Assembly (NCBI GenBank): GCA_024276275.1
Contig: JAJRXM010000016.1
Coordinates: 1 to 58,773, forward strand
DNA: 58,773 nt
Origin: Candidatus Zixiibacteriota bacterium
GTDB taxonomy: Bacteria; Zixibacteria; MSB-5A5; GN15; FEB-12
Reading direction: 5' to 3'
The stretch's first letter is position 1. Every line of letters starts with the position of its first letter. Under the pieces are notes generated by a model. That model did not search any database and was not told the DNA's origin. It saw nothing but the letters and a program-made list of their open reading frames with translations. The translations under genes were made by a program, and so were the position numbers. Shown one piece after another: positions 4,241 to 58,773 of the stretch.

Positions 4241-5515
4241 CCTGGTTTCTTACCAATTCTAATATTTCATCAACATCGTATTTTTCTGCGATATTACATT
4301 TTTCAAGGGCATTTTGAATCACTTTTACCATTTTCGCTCTTTTAATGTATGCCCCTTCCATCCATCAGGCTTATTTTTCAAAATTAAATCAAAGAGAGTA
4401 ATCGATAGTTTTTCGTCTTGATCAAGATTGTCATAAAATGCTCTCATGGCAAGTGTCTTTATTGTTTTTGGGTATTTGTTGCCACCTTCAGAGGATTTGA
4501 GTGATCTTAAATATGCTGTAATTTTTTTAAGATATTCTTTATAGCTGAGTGCATTTTCTCTTCGTTCCTTAATAATTACATCAAGAAGTATAGACATTTT
4601 TTCATAATATTTAGGGTTGGAAGGGGTTTCATCAATGATGAGTTTACGAACATTATTTTCAATTACCTGAGCAACAGACTCTCTATCTTTTTTTATGTGT
4701 GAAGGTAGTTTATCAATAGCATTTTCACCTTCCTTAACAATCAAATCAATGATAGTTAAATCATCAAAAGCACTAATTGTTTTACTTTCATCGGCATCGA
4801 TATAAGCATCAATGAGGTGACGCATCGCTGGTTCGTATGCTTTCAAGTCGATATAATCACCACTGGCTAATTTAATTTCAGAACGTACTTTCTCAAAATA
4901 CACAACTTCTTCTTTAATTTTTTGAGCTTCTTTTTTAGAAAAACCAGCTTGCTCCATATCTCCTGCTAAACTTACATACGCTCTTATGAGCGTTGATGTT
5001 AATTTATAGAGCGTAATACGACGAGGTTCATGTTCTTTGAGGTCTAGAGAGTTTTCCGTGTTACCACAAAAGTATTCAATAAAGTCGCTGGATTCTTTGG
5101 GTGGTTTAACTGATTCGCATAAAGCCCTAATTTTTTCTAAAGCAGTAACTAAATTTTCTTTTCCTGTTTTTATACGATCCTTTAAAAGACCTTCTACATC
5201 ATCAACATCAAAATTATCGAATGCATCTGATGTATAATTTTTAACTGCTTGGTCAAGGCTTTTAAATAAATCTTTATAGTCAATTATATATCCATAATCT
5301 TTATCTTCTCCATCAAGACGGTTCACTCGACAGATTGCTTGAAAGAGTCCATGGTCTTGCATGTTTTTATCAATATAAAGAAAGGTTGCAGGAGGGGCAT
5401 CAAATCCTGTTAGCAGTTTATCTACAACAATAAGAAGCTTCATTTGTCCGGGTTCTTCAACAAATTGTTTCTTTACTTCCTTTTCGAATATATTAGGGTC
5501 TTTTCCATTGAGCAT
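4230..5515 (-). pseudogene. hsdR: HsdR C-terminal part (type I restriction subunit), frameshifted
   Basis: Reads in the HsdR frame from KKMLNGKDP through EEPGQMKLLIVVDKLLTGFD (helicase motor domain 2) and the coiled C-terminal domain. The frame ends early at 4325 (GHTLKERKW). The normal HsdR tail continues in the next frame as MVKVIQNALEKCNIAEKYDV and then VRNQDEF, ending at 4230 inside the start of the metallopeptidase gene. One extra base in the four-T run at 4331-4334 would restore the frame. The upstream end is also out of frame with the fused N-terminal half at 5473-7509. Without the middle of the motor and with two frame breaks it should not yield an active restriction subunit. Confidence 0.85.
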
Positions 5516-7509
5516 TTTTTGAGACCATGACCTTGGAAAAGTTCATAATATTTACAAGCTTCATAAATACTTCCTGCGACCAAGATTGCATTTCCACGAC
5601 CGCTAAGTAAACGGTCATTTTTTTCCATATCTAAAAGGATGTCTGCAACTATCTTGTTTAGTCTTGATTGTGAGCTCAAGACTTTTTGCATAGTTCCCCA
5701 TCTTTTTTTAAGTTCTCTTTTTGCTACATCAGTTAATCCTTTGGTTTTAGCTTCAAACCATTGATCAACTTTTTCAGGGGAGCTAAGTCGTTGATTGATT
5801 TCTCGTGCTTCGTATTGAAGGTCAAGAACCACTTTATCATTTACTGCTTCATCATATTTATATGTATGAATGTATTTTCCAAAAGTTTTGATACTATTTC
5901 TTTTGTCCGCTTTAAGAAGAGGAGTCCCAGTAAAACCGACAAACACTCCTTTAGGTAGGATGGTTGTCATCGCCTTGTGAAGTTTTCCTGATTGTGTTCG
6001 ATGACATTCATCAACAAAAACATAAATATCACCTTTCGCCTTAAAGTCTTTAGGCATTGAATCTCTTAGTTCAGCTAAAAAATCATCAACATCTGTTGAA
6101 GTCTTGCGTCCAAACTTATGAACAAGAGAACACATAAGCCAAGGTTCCGTTGTATTGAGTTTTTTAATGAGGTCTTTACCGCTTTTTGTTCGGTAAATAT
6201 CTTCTTTAACTCCTTTAAAGAAGCGTTCAATTTGATCATCAAGTTCTTGCCTGTCAGTAATAATTAAGACTCTTGAATTGGGAATATTTTCTCGAATCCA
6301 TTTAGCCAGCCAAATCATAGTAAGGCTTTTTCCACTTCCTTGTGTATGCCAAATGATTCCGCCTTTACGCTTTTTAAGATATTTTTGTGATTCCCTAACT
6401 CCAAAATATTGGTTATGTCGACATATCTTTTTAGTACCACTATCAAACACTAAAAAGTCATGGATAATTTCTAGTAGTCGTTCTTTATCGCCTAACTGAA
6501 GAAGAGCTCTATCGAGTTTATTTTTTACCGTAGATTTTTCTTTCCAACTCAAATAATATTTTTCAGGAGTCTCAATAGTCGCATAACGAAGTCCTTCAGT
6601 GTCGTTTCCTGCCATAACCAGCTGAATTGTTGAGAAGAATGGTTTAATAAACATTTCTTTTTGATTGTCTAAGTTTTGTCTTATGTCTTGAGCAACAGAA
6701 ATAGTACTTCGTTTTAATTCTATAACGGCAACGGCAATACCGTTTACATATAAAACAATATCTGGTCGTTTGTCGTGTATTCCAGTAATTGTTACTTCTT
6801 GAGCTATATAGAAATCATTATTGAGCCTATTATTCCAATCAATAAAATGAACTGTTTTCTTATGCTCACCAACTTTTTCCTTAATATCAGCACCATAGCG
6901 AAGAAGTGTATAGACTTCTTTGTTTGCTTCATAGAGACTTTTATTTTGGACATTTGATGCTTTTTGTAACTTCTCAGTTGGAGGAAGGGGTATTAATATT
7001 CTTTTAATATTTGTTTTGGATACTCCATAAACCTTCAGACCAGTAGCTAATCTATTATATTGATCTCGAACTACCTTATTAGAACTAATATACCCCTTAA
7101 AACCATCTACAAATGTATTTTTTTTTGATCTAAATAAAAATGTATGTAATCCCGAAAAAGCTTTAATTTTATTTATATTTGTTACTTCAACACTTTTACA
7201 AATCCCCTCATAATCTTCAGAAGCATCTACGATGATAAGATCACCATCTTTTAATAACGAGTAATGCTTTAACTTTAACTTATCTATTGTTGGTACAGTG
7301 TGCTTTGAAAAATCGAGGAAATAATTCCATTTTGTATGAATATCACCATAGTGGATATAAAAAATATCACCATTTTCAGTTAAATCACTTCTCGAATACG
7401 AGGCACTGGAACAGGAATCAAAAGCATCATCAAATGATATTAATTTCCAATCCTCAGGAATAACACCAACTTCTGTTTGTTTATATCCTGCCTTAACTTT
7501 TTCTACCAT
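5473..7509 (-). pseudogene. HsdS target-recognition domain fused to truncated HsdR
   Basis: A single 678-residue open frame joins two type I subunits. Residues 1-180 are one HsdS target-recognition domain (YKQTEVGVIPEDWKLISFDD ... NIKRILIPLPPTEK). From about residue 181 the sequence is HsdR starting some 60 residues inside that protein (LQKASNVQNKSLYEANKEVY). HsdR parts present: nuclease RPD and ELK (D250, E264, K266), helicase Walker A HTQGSGKS 388-395 and DECH 500-503. The second HsdS half and the HsdR start are missing, so a deletion joined the genes in frame near position 6970. The frame then ends after GHGLKKC, where about 45 residues of HsdR are missing. It overlaps the hsdM stop by seven bases. 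Confidence 0.85.
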
Positions 7510-50999: not shown

Positions 51000-51085
51000 G
51001 GAGAGGTGGCAGAGTGGTCGAATGCGATGGTCTCGAACACCATTATACTCACAAGGTATCCAGGGTTCGAATCCCTGCCTCTCCG
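51000..51085 (+). tRNA. tRNA-Ser (anticodon CGA)
   Basis: Starts GGAGAGGTGGCAGAG and ends GCCTCTCCG. The anticodon arm is ATGGT-CTCGAAC-ACCAT with CGA. A long variable arm and GGTTCGAATCC T-loop make it a type II tRNA of 86 bases. CCA is not encoded. Together with tRNA-Ser(GGA) at 11298-11383 it frames the backbone segment; an integrase gene begins 112 bases downstream. Confidence 0.95.
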
Positions 51086-51088
51086 CTT
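51057..51088 (+). other. Putative attachment core at tRNA-Ser(CGA) 3' end
   Basis: Identical over 32 bases to the complement of 11295-11326. It covers the T-arm, the 3' acceptor strand and three bases beyond the tRNA. The adjacent integrase gene supports use as an attachment site for the right-hand island. The other att copy is outside the window. Confidence 0.6.
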
Positions 51089-51196: not shown

Positions 51197-52255
51197 ATGG
51201 CGAGAATTTACAGTTATAAGAATAAGAACGGAAAATCTACTTGGTTTCTTGACTACTCTTTTAAAGGTAAAAGATACCGTAAGAGAGTAGGGACTTCTAA
51301 AAAAGTTGCACTCCTTGAACTAAAAGATATTGAAGTAAAAATATCAAAGGGTGAGTACAAATTTGAACCTAATCAAATTTCAATTATAGACTTTTTTGAG
51401 GTTTACAAAAAATACTCATCTGTTAATCATGCTCATTCAACCTATAATAGATACCGTGCTATTGTTGATAATTTTCTAACATATTTGGATTCTAAAAAAG
51501 ATATTGTATATTTATCTGATTTACATTCTGAACTCTTTGAAGATTTTAAGATTTTTCGTCGCACCACTCCACTCAATCACAGAGAATTTGCTAAATCTAA
51601 TACTGTAAATATGGAACTAGTTACACTTGGTACTATTTTTAATTATGCTATAAAGTGTAATTATTTAAAAGAGAATCCGACTAATGGTGTAAGTAAATTA
51701 AAAGTAACTGATGCTAAGAAACCACGTTTCCTAACCGAAGAGGAAGTTGACTTACTACTACAAAACTGTGGAGAGTATCTCTATCCTTTATTTTTTACTT
51801 TTTTGAACACAGGTATGAGATTGGGTGAGTTGCTTCATCTTACATGGGATGATATAGATCTGAAGCAAAAGAAAATTCATATTGTATCAAAAGAATTTTG
51901 GAATCCTAAAACTGGTGAACGAACCATCCCCATGAATGATGAAATGAAGGGATTACTAAAAGAACTCAAATCAAAATCAAATGGTTCAATGTTTGTTTTT
52001 CCGGGACAGAATGGTGATAGGTTGAAGATCAAACTTCGTGAGCGGTTTATGATAGTAACAAAAAATTGTGGATTTCCTGATGTTACAAAAATTCATTCTC
52101 TACGTCATACTTTCGCATCGCATTTGGTGATGAAAGGTGTTGATTTACCTACAGTCAAAAACCTGATGGGACATTCCGATATTCAAACGACAATGATTTA
52201 TGCTCATTTGGCTCCCGATCACTTGGCTGACGCAGTTGAGAAATTAGAGTTTTAA
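51197..52255 (+). CDS. Tyrosine recombinase (right-hand island integrase)
   Basis: A 352-residue integrase. N-terminal AP2-like arm-binding region (ARIYSYKNKNGKSTWFLDYS), SAM-like core-binding region, and the catalytic domain: TGMRLGEL (Arg), HSLRHTF (His, Arg), MGHSDIQTTMIYAH (His and Tyr nucleophile). It is clearly different from the left-hand integrase though of the same family, so the two islands are not simple copies. Position next to tRNA-Ser(CGA) supports insertion there. Confidence 0.95.
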   Translation: MARIYSYKNKNGKSTWFLDYSFKGKRYRKRVGTSKKVALLELKDIEVKISKGEYKFEPNQISIIDFFEVYKKYSSVNHAHSTYNRYRAIVDNFLTYLDSKKDIVYLSDLHSELFEDFKIFRRTTPLNHREFAKSNTVNMELVTLGTIFNYAIKCNYLKENPTNGVSKLKVTDAKKPRFLTEEEVDLLLQNCGEYLYPLFFTFLNTGMRLGELLHLTWDDIDLKQKKIHIVSKEFWNPKTGERTIPMNDEMKGLLKELKSKSNGSMFVFPGQNGDRLKIKLRERFMIVTKNCGFPDVTKIHSLRHTFASHLVMKGVDLPTVKNLMGHSDIQTTMIYAHLAPDHLADAVEKLEF

Positions 52256-52602: not shown

Positions 52603-52630
52603 TCTTGGCTTTATAATTCTAAAGAAGTGA

Positions 52631-55600
52631 GAACTCATAGTTCGGAGTCTGATTTGGATTCTAACTTCAAAAGAATTTATTGAAGCAGCATATCAGAATA
52701 AAAAGGATAAAATAACAGGTTATCGATCTATATGGAATGAATTAGAACAAAAATGGGATACAACAGATTTAGTCCCTTTAACATCAAATTTTGCTACTGA
52801 AAAATTTACAATTCCTAGTGTTTATAATGGTAGATTCTATCTGGTCGATGCTCTTGAGGGATTTTATTCATTTCAAGTGTATAAAGATTCATTTTTAGGT
52901 AAACCTAGCGTTCCTGTGGTTGACAAAGTTAAATTTTATAAAAATAATCTGAGTGATCCCGTTGTGACAGATTTTTCTTATGCCGGTGGTATTATGGATG
53001 TTGGTGGTGATGCTTTACGATTTTCGAGGACATCCGTCTCCCAACCTTTTCTTGAAAGTGAATCTTCATCAAAAAGGGGATTATCAATACATCAATTTTT
53101 TAATGATATTAAATTCGTTGACCAAGATTTGTTAGTAGTAGATACTACTGAAGGGACGACAACAGATAGTTGTATTTTTTGGCATAGGGGAGTTTGTGCG
53201 GTAAGTGTTGATAATCCTATTTTTGATTACATTTTGGATGGAGTTCAATACTACTCTGCTACTTTAGATTCTGTAGAACAATTATCTACGGAATCTAAAT
53301 TTGATTTTTCAAAGAATTATTTTTCAATTCGTGAATTTGAATATAATTCTGGAAAATTTTATAAAACTTTTCTCGATTCTACTTATAGCAGAACTGACAG
53401 CTTAGATTCATTTACAAAGATTGAATATGATAGTACAAATATGCTACCTTCAAGTACTTGGAGAAGGCAAGTGATAAACTCTGATACTTCATATTTTGTT
53501 GATTCTGTTATATACGCTTATGAAATTGATACAATAATGGAAAACAGCAATGCGTTGATTCAACCTTATGAACAAATTAGCTTTTATGATTCAGTCCCTA
53601 ATTCTTCCGGTGATGAAGTTTTATTATCGAAGACTAGAATAGAATACGAAAAACATGGTAGTTGGAAACCTGTAAGATCATATATTTGGAAAGACCTTAG
53701 TGACGCAAATTCAATTATAAAGACTTCAGAAGTATCTTCTTTTAGTACTAAAGGATATCCCTTAGTAACTACTGATATTTCTGGAATAACTAATTGTATC
53801 AAATTGGACTCTTCAGCTTTTAACGTAATTGTAGAAGCAAAAAATAGTCTCCCGGGTGATCTTCTCGTTCAGGATTTTGAACAATTCAGAAATGATTATC
53901 GATGGGATAATTGGGATAATGGTGATATCGTTTTACAATTTCTTGATTCTACAAATGTTTTTACAGGAACTTATAGCTGTCTGTTAATTGACAAACCAAG
54001 TTCAGGTCCAACATGGGGTCCAAACAGAACTATTTTGTCCGATAGCTTGACAGATTCTTTATACACTTTTTCGTGTTGGGTTAAATCTAACTATTCTGTT
54101 GATATAACAGTTTTAAGCTATTGTGATAACGATAATTATTGTGATATTGGCAATACACTTACTAAAACTTTTAATAATTTAGATTCTAGCAAATGGACTC
54201 GCATTGATGGAACATTTAACTTAGCTGAAACCATTGATAGCTTGTATAAAATAAAAGTTTTTATAAACCTCAGTGAATATACAGGTACTGATTCAGTATT
54301 TGCATATTTTGATAACTTTAGATTTCATCCATATGATGCCATTGTGTCTACATCGGTTTTCGATAAGAATAATGGCCTTCTTTTATCTTCGTCAAATAAT
54401 AATAACTACCCATTTAGATACTATTATGATGATTTATTTAGAGTAAAAAATACATCAGATCATAGAAATAAAATTCTAACAAAAATAGACTATCAATTAA
54501 CCTATGATACTCTCCAAATTTATAAAAAGAATAGCTATATCTGGTCCGCAGAAGCAAAGACTTCAGGATCGAAAATAGTTTACTCCGATCATGATCAATT
54601 GATTTCATATTCTTTGAAAATGTATAACTTCTCTGCGAGTGATACGTCTTGGTCTAAAATTTATATAAATAATCAGTGTATTGATTCGCTGGTTGATTAT
54701 GGAGGAGCTGGTACTATATATGATTCATTAAAAAACACTATTTTTGTCTATAAAAATGATACTGTTTATATTGAAGTAAATTATGCTCCAAATGGTTTTT
54801 ATGATGGATATGCAACTGCTCAGATAAGTTATGAAACATCAAGATATCCTCCTTACGATGTAGAAAACCCAAACTATGTGTTAACAACTACATTTTCAGA
54901 TAATGACTCTATAATAACAGCAAATTTTTATGATGGTTCAGGAAATGTTATTCAAACTCGATCCAGTGGTTATAATGACAGTACGGTTTTAGTATCTTTC
55001 TCAGATTATGATATCTATGGAAATATTTTGAAAAACTATAAAACTTATTATGATGATCATGCTCCTCTCATTGATACAGTTATTTCAATCGATACTACTT
55101 TTGATGGGATTGATGGAGGTTACCATCGTAATAGTGATTTTGCCTCAGATTCCTTAGCAGATATTGATACTATTTACTTTTTTATATGGGAGGATGGATA
55201 TTTTGACTATAGTTTATCATCGTTAAATAGAAAAACTGATGAAGGAATATCTATTTATCTTAAAGACACTTTGATTATTGATTTTGTAAATCATGATCAA
55301 GCCTTAGATGATATCAACCCTTGTTATGCGGATATTTATAATGACTCTGTAGGCACATTTTTAGTGAATCAAGGTGATAATATTAAGATTATACTTAATA
55401 ATTCAATAACATGCGACCTCTCCAGTAATGAAATAAAAGAAACATATTGCTCAATCTTATATTCTATTTTTACCTATAGCGAATTTGACACTACAATAAC
55501 AATAGATACGGTAATTGTTAACGGTATAACCGATTATGATTATGACAGTACTTACAGTAAAGTTGATGCTTATTATAGTGATACCGGAGCCGGACTTGAT

Positions 55601-58600
55601 CATGGCGGAGTACCCTATTCCGAGAAAGAATATTCTAAAGGCATAAAATCAAAACTGACAAGATCAGCATCAGCAGGTTCTACTTGGGCTTTGGATTCAG
55701 GTTATGAGTCAGAATATATTTCTTATACAGATACTCTTGCTAAAGAATTAGTGAGTATGTCCTATGACCCGGACTCTGTACTAGTTCTTTCAAAAACAGA
55801 TCGTTGGGGCAGATATGAAAAAAAATATAGTTTGATATGGGATAACTCTATAGATGATTACGATTCCGTACTTACATATTCGTTTAAAGATCGAAAAGGA
55901 CAAGTAACGTCTGTTTGGATTGATACTTCTCTAGCTGTTACTACAAACGATTCTATCAAAATTCGTGAATATTTCTATAATGATTTAGGTCAACTAACTG
56001 CAGAATGGCGAGTTGATTACGGTACTATTCGTATGCTTTATGATTTAGCAGGAAATAAACGGTTTATGCAAAATGATAAACGACTTGCCGAAGATAATTC
56101 TGTATATTTTAAGTATGATGATCAAGGCAGGATAATTGAGGAAGGTGTTATCGATTCTGCCTCTATTTATTTCGATCAAACTTATGCTGATAGTCTAAAT
56201 TTCCCTGAAACAGGTCAGGCTTATACTTATACCTCTAAATACAAATACACATATGACTATATTCAACGTATTCAAGGGACAGATACTTTAGAATGCAATT
56301 GTCCCGGTCAATTAGTCCGTACGGAAAAAATAGGTAGCTATCAGTATTTTAAAGAATTTTATACTTTCCCATCGGGTGACTCAGATATGACAATTATTAG
56401 GTTACCTCAACCTGTTTTACCTTCTCTAAAAGCTATTACACGTAGATACAATATGGATGGCTCGATGAAATCAATGACAGTATATCCACATTGGCCATCT
56501 ATTTCTGACAACAGAACTTACTCATACGATTACTATAATAATGGTCAACTCAAATCAATTAATGACGGCTCTTTTATGTTAGATGAAGAGCGTACATTTG
56601 CTGAATACGAGTATAATATTGATGGTTCAGTTGATTTAGTCCGATATGGAGTATATCATTCTACTCCTATATCTGGTCCAATATCTGATACTACACAAAT
56701 CATTCGGTATTCTTATGATACACGTGGCATGCTAACCAGTATAGCAGATACTGCCAATGTTATTGCTTCTAATTATGGTTCAGGTGAAGATTCGCTTCAT
56801 TTTGGATTATCGTTAGAATATCTTGATTCTGTCAATGGTGGATTTGCCAACGGAAGAGTCCATAAAATAAATAGCAGTAGCTCAACAGGTTCATCTGTAT
56901 CACAAAATAACTATGAATATGATTATAATAACTTAGGTTGGCTTACATTAGCAGATAACATAACCGATAATAATTTAGATAGAGAGTACATCTACAATAG
57001 ATTAGGTAACCGCAAGACTTTAATATCCGGTAATGACACTATAGTTTATGTTTATGACACATTAAGTGATTCCGGTTCTTCAATATTGTTAAATTATACC
57101 GGTATGAATAAAAACTATACGTATGACCAAATCGGTAATATGACTTCTGATTCTTCAAGAAACATCAATCTAATGACGTATGAATATCGTAATTTAATGG
57201 ACTACTCAAAGATGACTTCTACGGTTGATGCAAACAGTTCTGATGAATTGTTTATGACTTACGATGAAACAGGAATGCGTATAAAAAAAGAATTTAAATA
57301 TAAATATTGGGATGATTGTTTTGGAGGTGGTATAGAAAACTTCTCTTCAGGTTCCGGTTCATCTGATTTAACTCAACAAAGCGGCAATTTATCAAATTTT
57401 GAAGCATCTAACTTAGGTAGCGGAGGAACCGAAGCATTAGGAGCCGGACCGGGCGGAGAACAATGCCTGAAAACTGCTTCCGTACATACCTATTACCTAT
57501 ATGACAACGGCGTTTTATTGGCGACTTTTGATGAAAACGACAATGTTTTAGAGTCATTTGTAAATTCACAGGAAGGAATGATAGCATCATACAAAAACGA
57601 TGATGACAACTTACTTTACTATTACCTGCGTGATCAAATTGGTTCACCTCGTGTAATTCTACATTCAACTCCGACAGCCTCTACAAAAACTACCGTTGCT
57701 CAAAGTATTAACTATCATCCTTTTGGTGCTGTCTCGGTTGCTATCGGTTCGTATGATACTCCGTATAAGTTTACAGGTAAAGAAAATGACTTACATGGTA
57801 ATTTTGAATTTACTTATTTTGGTGCAAGATACTATAATCCTGAGACCGGTTATTTCAGTTCAATCGACAAAGCAGGGCAATTTACCAGTGGATATCTGTA
57901 TGGTGGCAATAATCCGATCAGTACTATTGATCCTGATGGTAACTTTGCGACATGGGTTGTAGCACTTGCTGGTGTTGGAATAGCAATGAATTATCAAGCC
58001 AATGAACAACGGATGGAAGGAATTCCTTGGTATATGAATTTAGCCATTAGTTCTTTTCAGGCATATATTAGTTATCAATCTGCAGGAGCAGCATCAGGTT
58101 ATGGGGGTGCTAATCTACTCTATAGTATCGGAGCAGGAGTTAGGGATGCTACAGCGTTGACTGTTATATCTAATGTATCAAATTTGAACGACCTAAGTTC
58201 AATAAAAGTAACTGATCAACTAGGATTTACAATAGCAAGTGGAATTTCTAATGGAGCTCTAAACTCCCAACAAGCGAATAATTTTATTAATACAGGAGAG
58301 CTTAGATCGTATAAATCTACATGGGACAGAACTTTTAATGATCTAAACAGGATATTTGCAGGTGAAGTAAGTGGTGAAAGAATGAAAGAAATATTATCTA
58401 AATATCAAAAATTAGGTATTATTCCAGCTGGTCGTTTATCACTAACTAATAAAGTTATAACTAATAGAGAAATAAAATTAATTGATACAAAAATGGAAGC
58501 TTCGAGTCACATCTCTAAAGCTAGTAAAGCTATTAAAGGTAAATTCGGAGCCGATGTCATCTTTAATTACGAATATTTTGCTTCGGAAAGTGGAAGCTAT

Positions 58601-58651
58601 TTAAGACATATTAATTATAATATTCCTAGAGGTGAACCTCCCCCGAATTGA
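52631..58651 (+). pseudogene. Giant RHS/YD-repeat protein, 5'-truncated and capped by an IS
   Basis: An open frame of about 2006 codons runs from just after a TGA (52628-52630). The first 82 codons have no ATG, GTG or TTG; the first possible start is GTG 52877 (1924 residues), and no signal peptide is present, so the 5' end of the gene is missing. A jelly-roll carbohydrate-binding-like domain lies at about residues 328-488 counted from GTG 52877 (DLLVQDFEQFRNDYRWDNW). YD repeats follow (YSYDTRGMLTSIADT). The RHS core ends YYLRDQIGSPRVILHSTP, NFEFTYFGARYYNPETGYFS, GNNPISTIDPDG. The variable C-terminal region after residue 1690 has no recognised toxin. The final residues GEPPPN seem to come from an IS3-type left end. 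Confidence 0.8.
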
Positions 58652-58773
58652 CGGACAGCAAGTTAAGAAGTATATTCCGTTATAGGAGGTGTCCAATGAC
58701 ACGAAGACGTAAATATGACCGTCAATTTAAGATAGAAGCTGTTCGTTTAGTAACAGAGAACGGTCGCAAAGCA
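58633..58773 (+). mobile_element. Left end of an IS3-family insertion sequence
   Basis: From 58633 the sequence TGAACCTCCCCCGAATTGAC has the look of an IS3-family left inverted repeat (TGA, C-rich stretch, AT-rich, GGAC). The transposase OrfA begins 63 bases in. The element continues beyond the window, so its length and right end cannot be seen. Confidence 0.65.
58696..58773 (+). CDS. IS3-family transposase OrfA, N-terminus only
   Basis: ATG 58696 with a strong AGGAGGT site at 58684-58690 encodes 26 residues, TRRRKYDRQFKIEAVRLVTE, before the window ends. The pattern RKYDRQFKIEAVRLV is the first helix of the HTH_Tnp_1 domain of IS3 OrfA proteins. A programmed frameshift to OrfB would lie outside the window. 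Confidence 0.85.
   Translation, partial: MTRRRKYDRQFKIEAVRLVTENGRKA

Follow-up and report, generated by a model that had tools for sequence, protein, structure and literature searches.

Fragmented RHS genes and insertions of insertion sequences (ISs) are both well known in general. The closest described counterparts of the locus analysed here are the orphan rhs of Salmonella, which, according to the published account (PMC3967940), carry neither translation-start nor export signals, look like a piece moved away from a complete gene, are located behind a full main rhs gene together with an immunity gene of their own, and are expressed after joining that main gene. A literature search for Zixibacteria combined with Rhs and toxin yielded no paper. 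Here, we describe an open reading frame (ORF) of a Candidatus Zixiibacteriota genome that is, with high probability, the remnant of a formerly complete RHS polymorphic-toxin gene, one that was carried by a tRNA-Ser island, lost its 5′ part by rearrangement, received an IS3-type element in its tip, and has recently become a pseudogene.

The window, that is, the whole stretch of 58,773 nucleotides that was analysed, constitutes one entire contig (C80) of the draft genome G000 (3.39 Mb in 100 contigs, 95.4% complete), and absences reported for G000 are to be read as absences within the searched sequence of a 95% complete, 100-contig draft. RHS cores were found in 29 of the 80 genomes of the order, which makes this type of gene commonplace in the lineage; among three congeners (G047, G048, and G049), only G048 has one. 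The whole ORF, used as the query in a first scan of genome contigs, found no relative, and the three loci matched in a genome-contig scan by an alignment of the RHS core (A2) are MAGs named Candidatus Zixiibacteriota, including JAJRSF010000038.1.

The ORF (52631-58651, plus strand) follows an in-frame TGA at 52628-52630 and runs through 2006 open codons to a TGA stop at 58649-58651. A sequence-only reading of the window had described it as an RHS gene without a signal peptide whose first 82 codons contain no start. This count is exact, since ATG, GTG, and TTG are absent until the GTG at 52877, and no signal peptide is recognizable by eye from that GTG onward; the designation as an RHS gene holds for the core, but RHS similarity starts only at about residue 35, codons 8-35 matching another protein. 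The RHS-associated core (TIGR03696) covers residues 1695-1770 with an E value of 7.3e-14 (52 bits against a cut-off of 32.5), whereas for YD repeats the TIGR01643 match stayed below its cut-off (E 0.17). In the searched sequence of G000, this ORF is the sole RHS match, and its RHS portion, of about 1970 codons, is very long. The features of the locus are collected in Table 1.

Table 1. Coordinates of the features around the RHS fragment, numbered from the first base of the window.
Feature	Position	Strand	Basis or remark
tRNA-Ser (CGA), presumed island integration site	51000..51086	+	ARAGORN
Tyrosine integrase, 352 aa, complete	51197..52255	+	PF00589 E 4.2e-33, PF13102 E 2.8e-11
Second integrase of the same family, C-terminal remnant, 70 aa	52358..52570	+	PF00589 E 1e-15
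22-nt pattern	52640..52661	+	single in G000 and in G048, each time behind the integrase
PD-(D/E)XK-like gene piece, in frame, codons 8-35	52652..52735	+	tblastn to G001:C101
RHS gene fragment	52733..58632	+	5′ part missing; core 57713-57940; tip from 57941
AGG, expected 3-bp target duplication, left side	58630..58632	+	no partner found
IS3-type left end (type A), truncated where the contig stops	58633..58773	+	repeated copies; OrfA start at 58696

At the 3′ end, the left-end motif TGAACCTCCCCC... of an IS begins at 58633, as does the terminal sequence TGAACCTCCCCCGAATTGACGGACAG. Within G000, this left end occurs in five contexts, at the ends of contigs C80, C64, C20, C78, and C39, with C64 and C20 carrying the identical terminal stretch next to other flanks and C78 and C39 a variant. 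The congener G049 has it in 15 places with a slightly different tip, and these two are the only ones of the 54 family genomes in which the left end is present. The variants read TGAACC and TAACCC in G000 and TAAACC in G049. Inside the element, the 26 residues of an OrfA start (58696-58773) match HTH_Tnp_1 over the cut-off (E 1.5e-5). Right ends were located at four places in G000 (type A on C69 and C45, type B on C34 and C19) and at 12 places in G049, and the IS ends of both genomes sit at or near contig ends. Type-A right ends carry CA, and the inverted ends are imperfect as judged by eye. The OrfB tail (the last 33-35 residues) matches rve_2 with an E value of 9.8e-8 in one G049 copy and of 1.5e-3, below the cut-off, in G000 type B; the transposase domain rve (PF00665) had no match in G000, and the complete IS, sought in plasmid records, had none there. 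Codons 2002-2006 (EPPPN) and the stop are supplied by the element, as is the third base of codon 2001. The proposal that an IS3-type left end provides the last five residues and the stop is supported by 20 copies with different flanks, by the OrfA start, and by right ends of apparent IS3 type.

For the right half, the first 300 bases of 95 contigs, together with the starts of the other five, were compared among themselves and against five known ends, after which G000 was searched with the right-end sequence. Of the right IS end and 3-bp target repeat that the sequence-only reading had envisaged beyond the window, the former was found four times in G000, on other contigs, but none of these four is followed by AGG. 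An immunity gene displaced by the element, as that reading proposed, would have to lie beyond the end of the contig. The right flank of C69 (AAC) is the same as the left flank of C20, a pairing that chance could explain with six pairings possible. That of C45 is TAT, so this contig is ruled out by the target repeat as the right-side partner of the window (TAT versus AGG), while recombination between IS copies could still link the two. For 7 of the 12 right flanks of G049, the first three bases recur at a left flank, compared with 1-6 in shifted controls, which hints at a 3-bp target repeat for this IS. Two further multi-copy repeats, at 13 and 7 contig starts of G000, are probably further insertion sequences.

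The residues between the core and the element form a variable C-terminal tip behind a conserved boundary. Alignment with other RHS proteins, by which the tail was to be checked, works for the core region, which the relatives have in common, and fails for the tip: alignments of the whole ORF with relatives fade between residues 1774 and 1887, in the first half of the tip, and the tip alone found no relative in the 79 other genomes of the order. Plasmid records and viral contigs (the latter in a scan seeded by six exact peptide patterns only) likewise contained no relative of the tip, and a domain search gave no Pfam match. An NCBIfam match (E 0.042, far below the cut-off) and a PDB match (E 0.88) are meaningless.

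Behind the core match, the tip spans 236 codons, five of them from the IS. Tips were measured for the 30 of 68 core matches that had a locus, the window included; after three open at contig ends had been set aside, the 26 others ranged from 84 to 330 codons (median 198), 9 of them being as long as that of the window or longer. This range is in keeping with the alternative that the IS landed directly after the original end of the tip and cost it no more than a few residues, a course of events that is compatible with the 5′ loss but that we regard as unlikely. Five other RHS ORFs sharing a core motif, few and motif-chosen (15 loci examined, six ORFs matched including that of the window), extend 280-304 residues behind the same point, versus 232 in the window, and three more of like core (G078, G066, and G027, picked by eye afterwards) have 287-309 versus 236. 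The fold predicted from the single sequence for the last 181 residues ends in a strand pair at the junction, with a mean pLDDT so poor (50.6) that it is hardly evidence. Because RHS ORFs of like core have longer tips, a loss of some 50-75 residues from the tip is favoured, although unproven. The truncation suspected in the sequence-only reading is likely and agrees with the motif-matched ORFs, while the observed length remains inside the general range.

Upstream of the ORF, the tRNA-Ser, the complete integrase, and the integrase remnant identify the region as a tRNA island. In blastn comparisons, the same tRNA neighbourhood is found in G048 and G047, where similarity ends at 51088 and other genes lie beyond; G047 has a 37-nt repeat of the tRNA end. 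The far side of the G000 island, where such a repeat would be expected, is not on the contig. The remnant is about 79% identical in DNA to the 3′ end of the integrase of G048:C38, which itself lies behind a tRNA-Ser and is followed, about 3.7 kb further on, by the start of a damaged RHS gene, so that RHS cargo behind a tRNA-Ser integrase is seen in two congeners (G000 and G048). Related integrases are present on C87 (in two overlapping frames, behind a tRNA-Ser), on C95 (near the tmRNA gene), and on C35 (no tRNA within the stretch read). Contig C45 of G000 carries behind a tRNA-Ser(GCT) an N-terminal integrase fragment (L221 3229-3789), which is then cut and whose 132 residues are 89% identical to the integrase of the window. 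Elsewhere in the window, adjoining a tRNA-Ser(GGA) and an integrase, the ORF at 5473-7509 looks by eye as if the start of a specificity subunit had been joined to a type I restriction subunit, the rest lying at 4325-5515; it may be a further patchwork gene of a tRNA-Ser island.

The RHS genes of G048:C38, which holds two copies, and of G018:C7 have a core region like that of the window, the identity being 64% for the first and 50% for the second G048 copy, and 48% for G018. The full-length homologues among them, the second G048 copy, of 2630 aa, and the G018 gene, of 2847 aa when counted from the first TTG that could serve as its start, keep a long N-terminal part, with a signal-peptide-like stretch near the start as judged by eye, whereas the window ORF is without it. 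In BLASTP alignments, residue 79 of the window ORF corresponds to residue 919 of the second G048 copy and residue 90 to residue 991 of the G018 protein; for the first G048 copy, residue 35 corresponds to residue 961, including a 127-residue foreign front. By these offsets, the homologues extend further N-terminally by about 830-940 residues, which is roughly what the window ORF has lost; for the proteins of 2630 and 2847 aa, the additional upstream part amounts to about 875-936 residues. A profile of three rows made from the N-terminal parts of homologues (A1) matches two places in G048 and none in G000, G047, or G049. The N-terminal export or delivery part is absent from the ORF, and none was found elsewhere in G000; the missing 5′ end reported by the sequence-only reading is thus supported by comparison with longer homologues. 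The first G048 copy (L063 5695-14685) is also damaged: at its 5′ end it is joined in frame to a piece of a restriction helicase (ResIII), and two in-frame stops break up its reading frame. Behind the full-length RHS gene of G018:C7 lie two ORFs, a small one (L065 10323-10811) that looks by eye like an immunity protein and one of 496 codons (L065 11549-13036) that comprises core and tip.

What directly precedes the RHS portion is not RHS. Residues 8-35 align in tblastn with a protein of G001:C101 (28 aligned, 22 positive), 149 residues of which weakly resemble PDDEXK_5 (E 3.5e-4, below the cut-off), and DNA similarity to the post-integrase region of G048:C38 extends to 52661 and ends there. On these similarities, the ORF is a patchwork of a few post-integrase codons, a putatively nuclease-like fragment, and then RHS from 52733. 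Window positions 52628-52661 and L063 2070-2103 (G048:C38) form a block that ends in 26 identical bases, with surroundings of about 79% identity; similarity stops directly at this block in both G000 and G048, and it possibly represents a recombination site behind the integrases.

With 82 codons lacking a start and no export part, the fragment could also be read as a Salmonella-type orphan RHS tip, which would be silent at present but kept as a reserve for recombination with an intact RHS gene. PMC3967940 describes fragments of this sort, and the 496-codon ORF of G018 shows a core-plus-tip unit behind a full-length gene. However, neither a second RHS core nor an N-terminal RHS part was found in G000, no immunity gene is visible, and the IS sits within the tip, which leaves this reading quite improbable. 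Still harder to credit is an assembly chimera, in which a misjoin at about 52650-52733 or at the IS end would conceal a gene that is intact in the cell: contig C80 does terminate inside a multi-copy element, and contig ends of G000 overlap one another by about 141 nt in an end-versus-end comparison, but the IS end recurs at 20 places with differing flanks, and both the 22-nt pattern and the RHS piece are single-copy in G000, so no multi-copy repeat is seen at the 5′ junction.

We return to decay of an RHS gene. A deletion or rearrangement behind the island integrases, as we infer, would have removed the first ~830-940 codons, including the start and the export signal, and left the remaining RHS part joined in frame to the nuclease-like gene piece, a junction shown by homology. 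An IS3-type element, shown by its left end, entered the variable tip later or independently, closing the frame after five foreign codons. An unconstrained frame of 2006 codons would be expected to gather about 3.3 stops at 1% substitution (a simple estimate in which indels are not counted), and yet it remains open, which points either to recent damage or to a residual constraint; recent damage is more likely than selection still acting on the frame. Since neither a start nor an export part nor a further RHS gene was found, the fragment is in all likelihood either not produced or not delivered, as befits a recent pseudogene, and a frame that lacks a start and an export part and ends in foreign codons is most likely no functional toxin. 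Two further points run counter to decay: sequence of G000 outside that searched could hold the missing 5′ part, the right flank, or an additional RHS gene, and the length of the tip is normal among RHS cores generally. The fragment is nevertheless most likely an ordinary case of gene decay, an RHS gene broken at both ends. It is highly unlikely that it is still translated from an internal GTG and acts inside the cell, with the end given by the IS altering or killing the tip; if this were true, the joining of RHS genes to defence-type gene pieces (nuclease-like here, restriction helicase in G048) within tRNA-Ser islands would constitute a recurrent route of remodelling.

Read as decay, the locus provides an example of how an RHS gene breaks down within a tRNA island, in a candidate phylum that has received little study. 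It also carries a warning for annotation, as the 1924-residue protein predicted from the GTG at 52877 has no true RHS toxin start and probably no true end.

In comparison with known systems, the element resembles the IS3 family in its HTH_Tnp_1 OrfA start, its apparently rve_2-type OrfB end, its imperfect inverted ends, the CA at type-A right ends, and a possible 3-bp target repeat; its interior is not assembled, and the left end exists in several variants. Set against the orphan rhs of Salmonella (PMC3967940), the window fragment differs in having no main rhs gene found in the same genome, in a tip cut by an IS, and in the great length of its RHS portion (about 1970 codons), whereas it resembles them in lacking a start for 82 codons and an export part.
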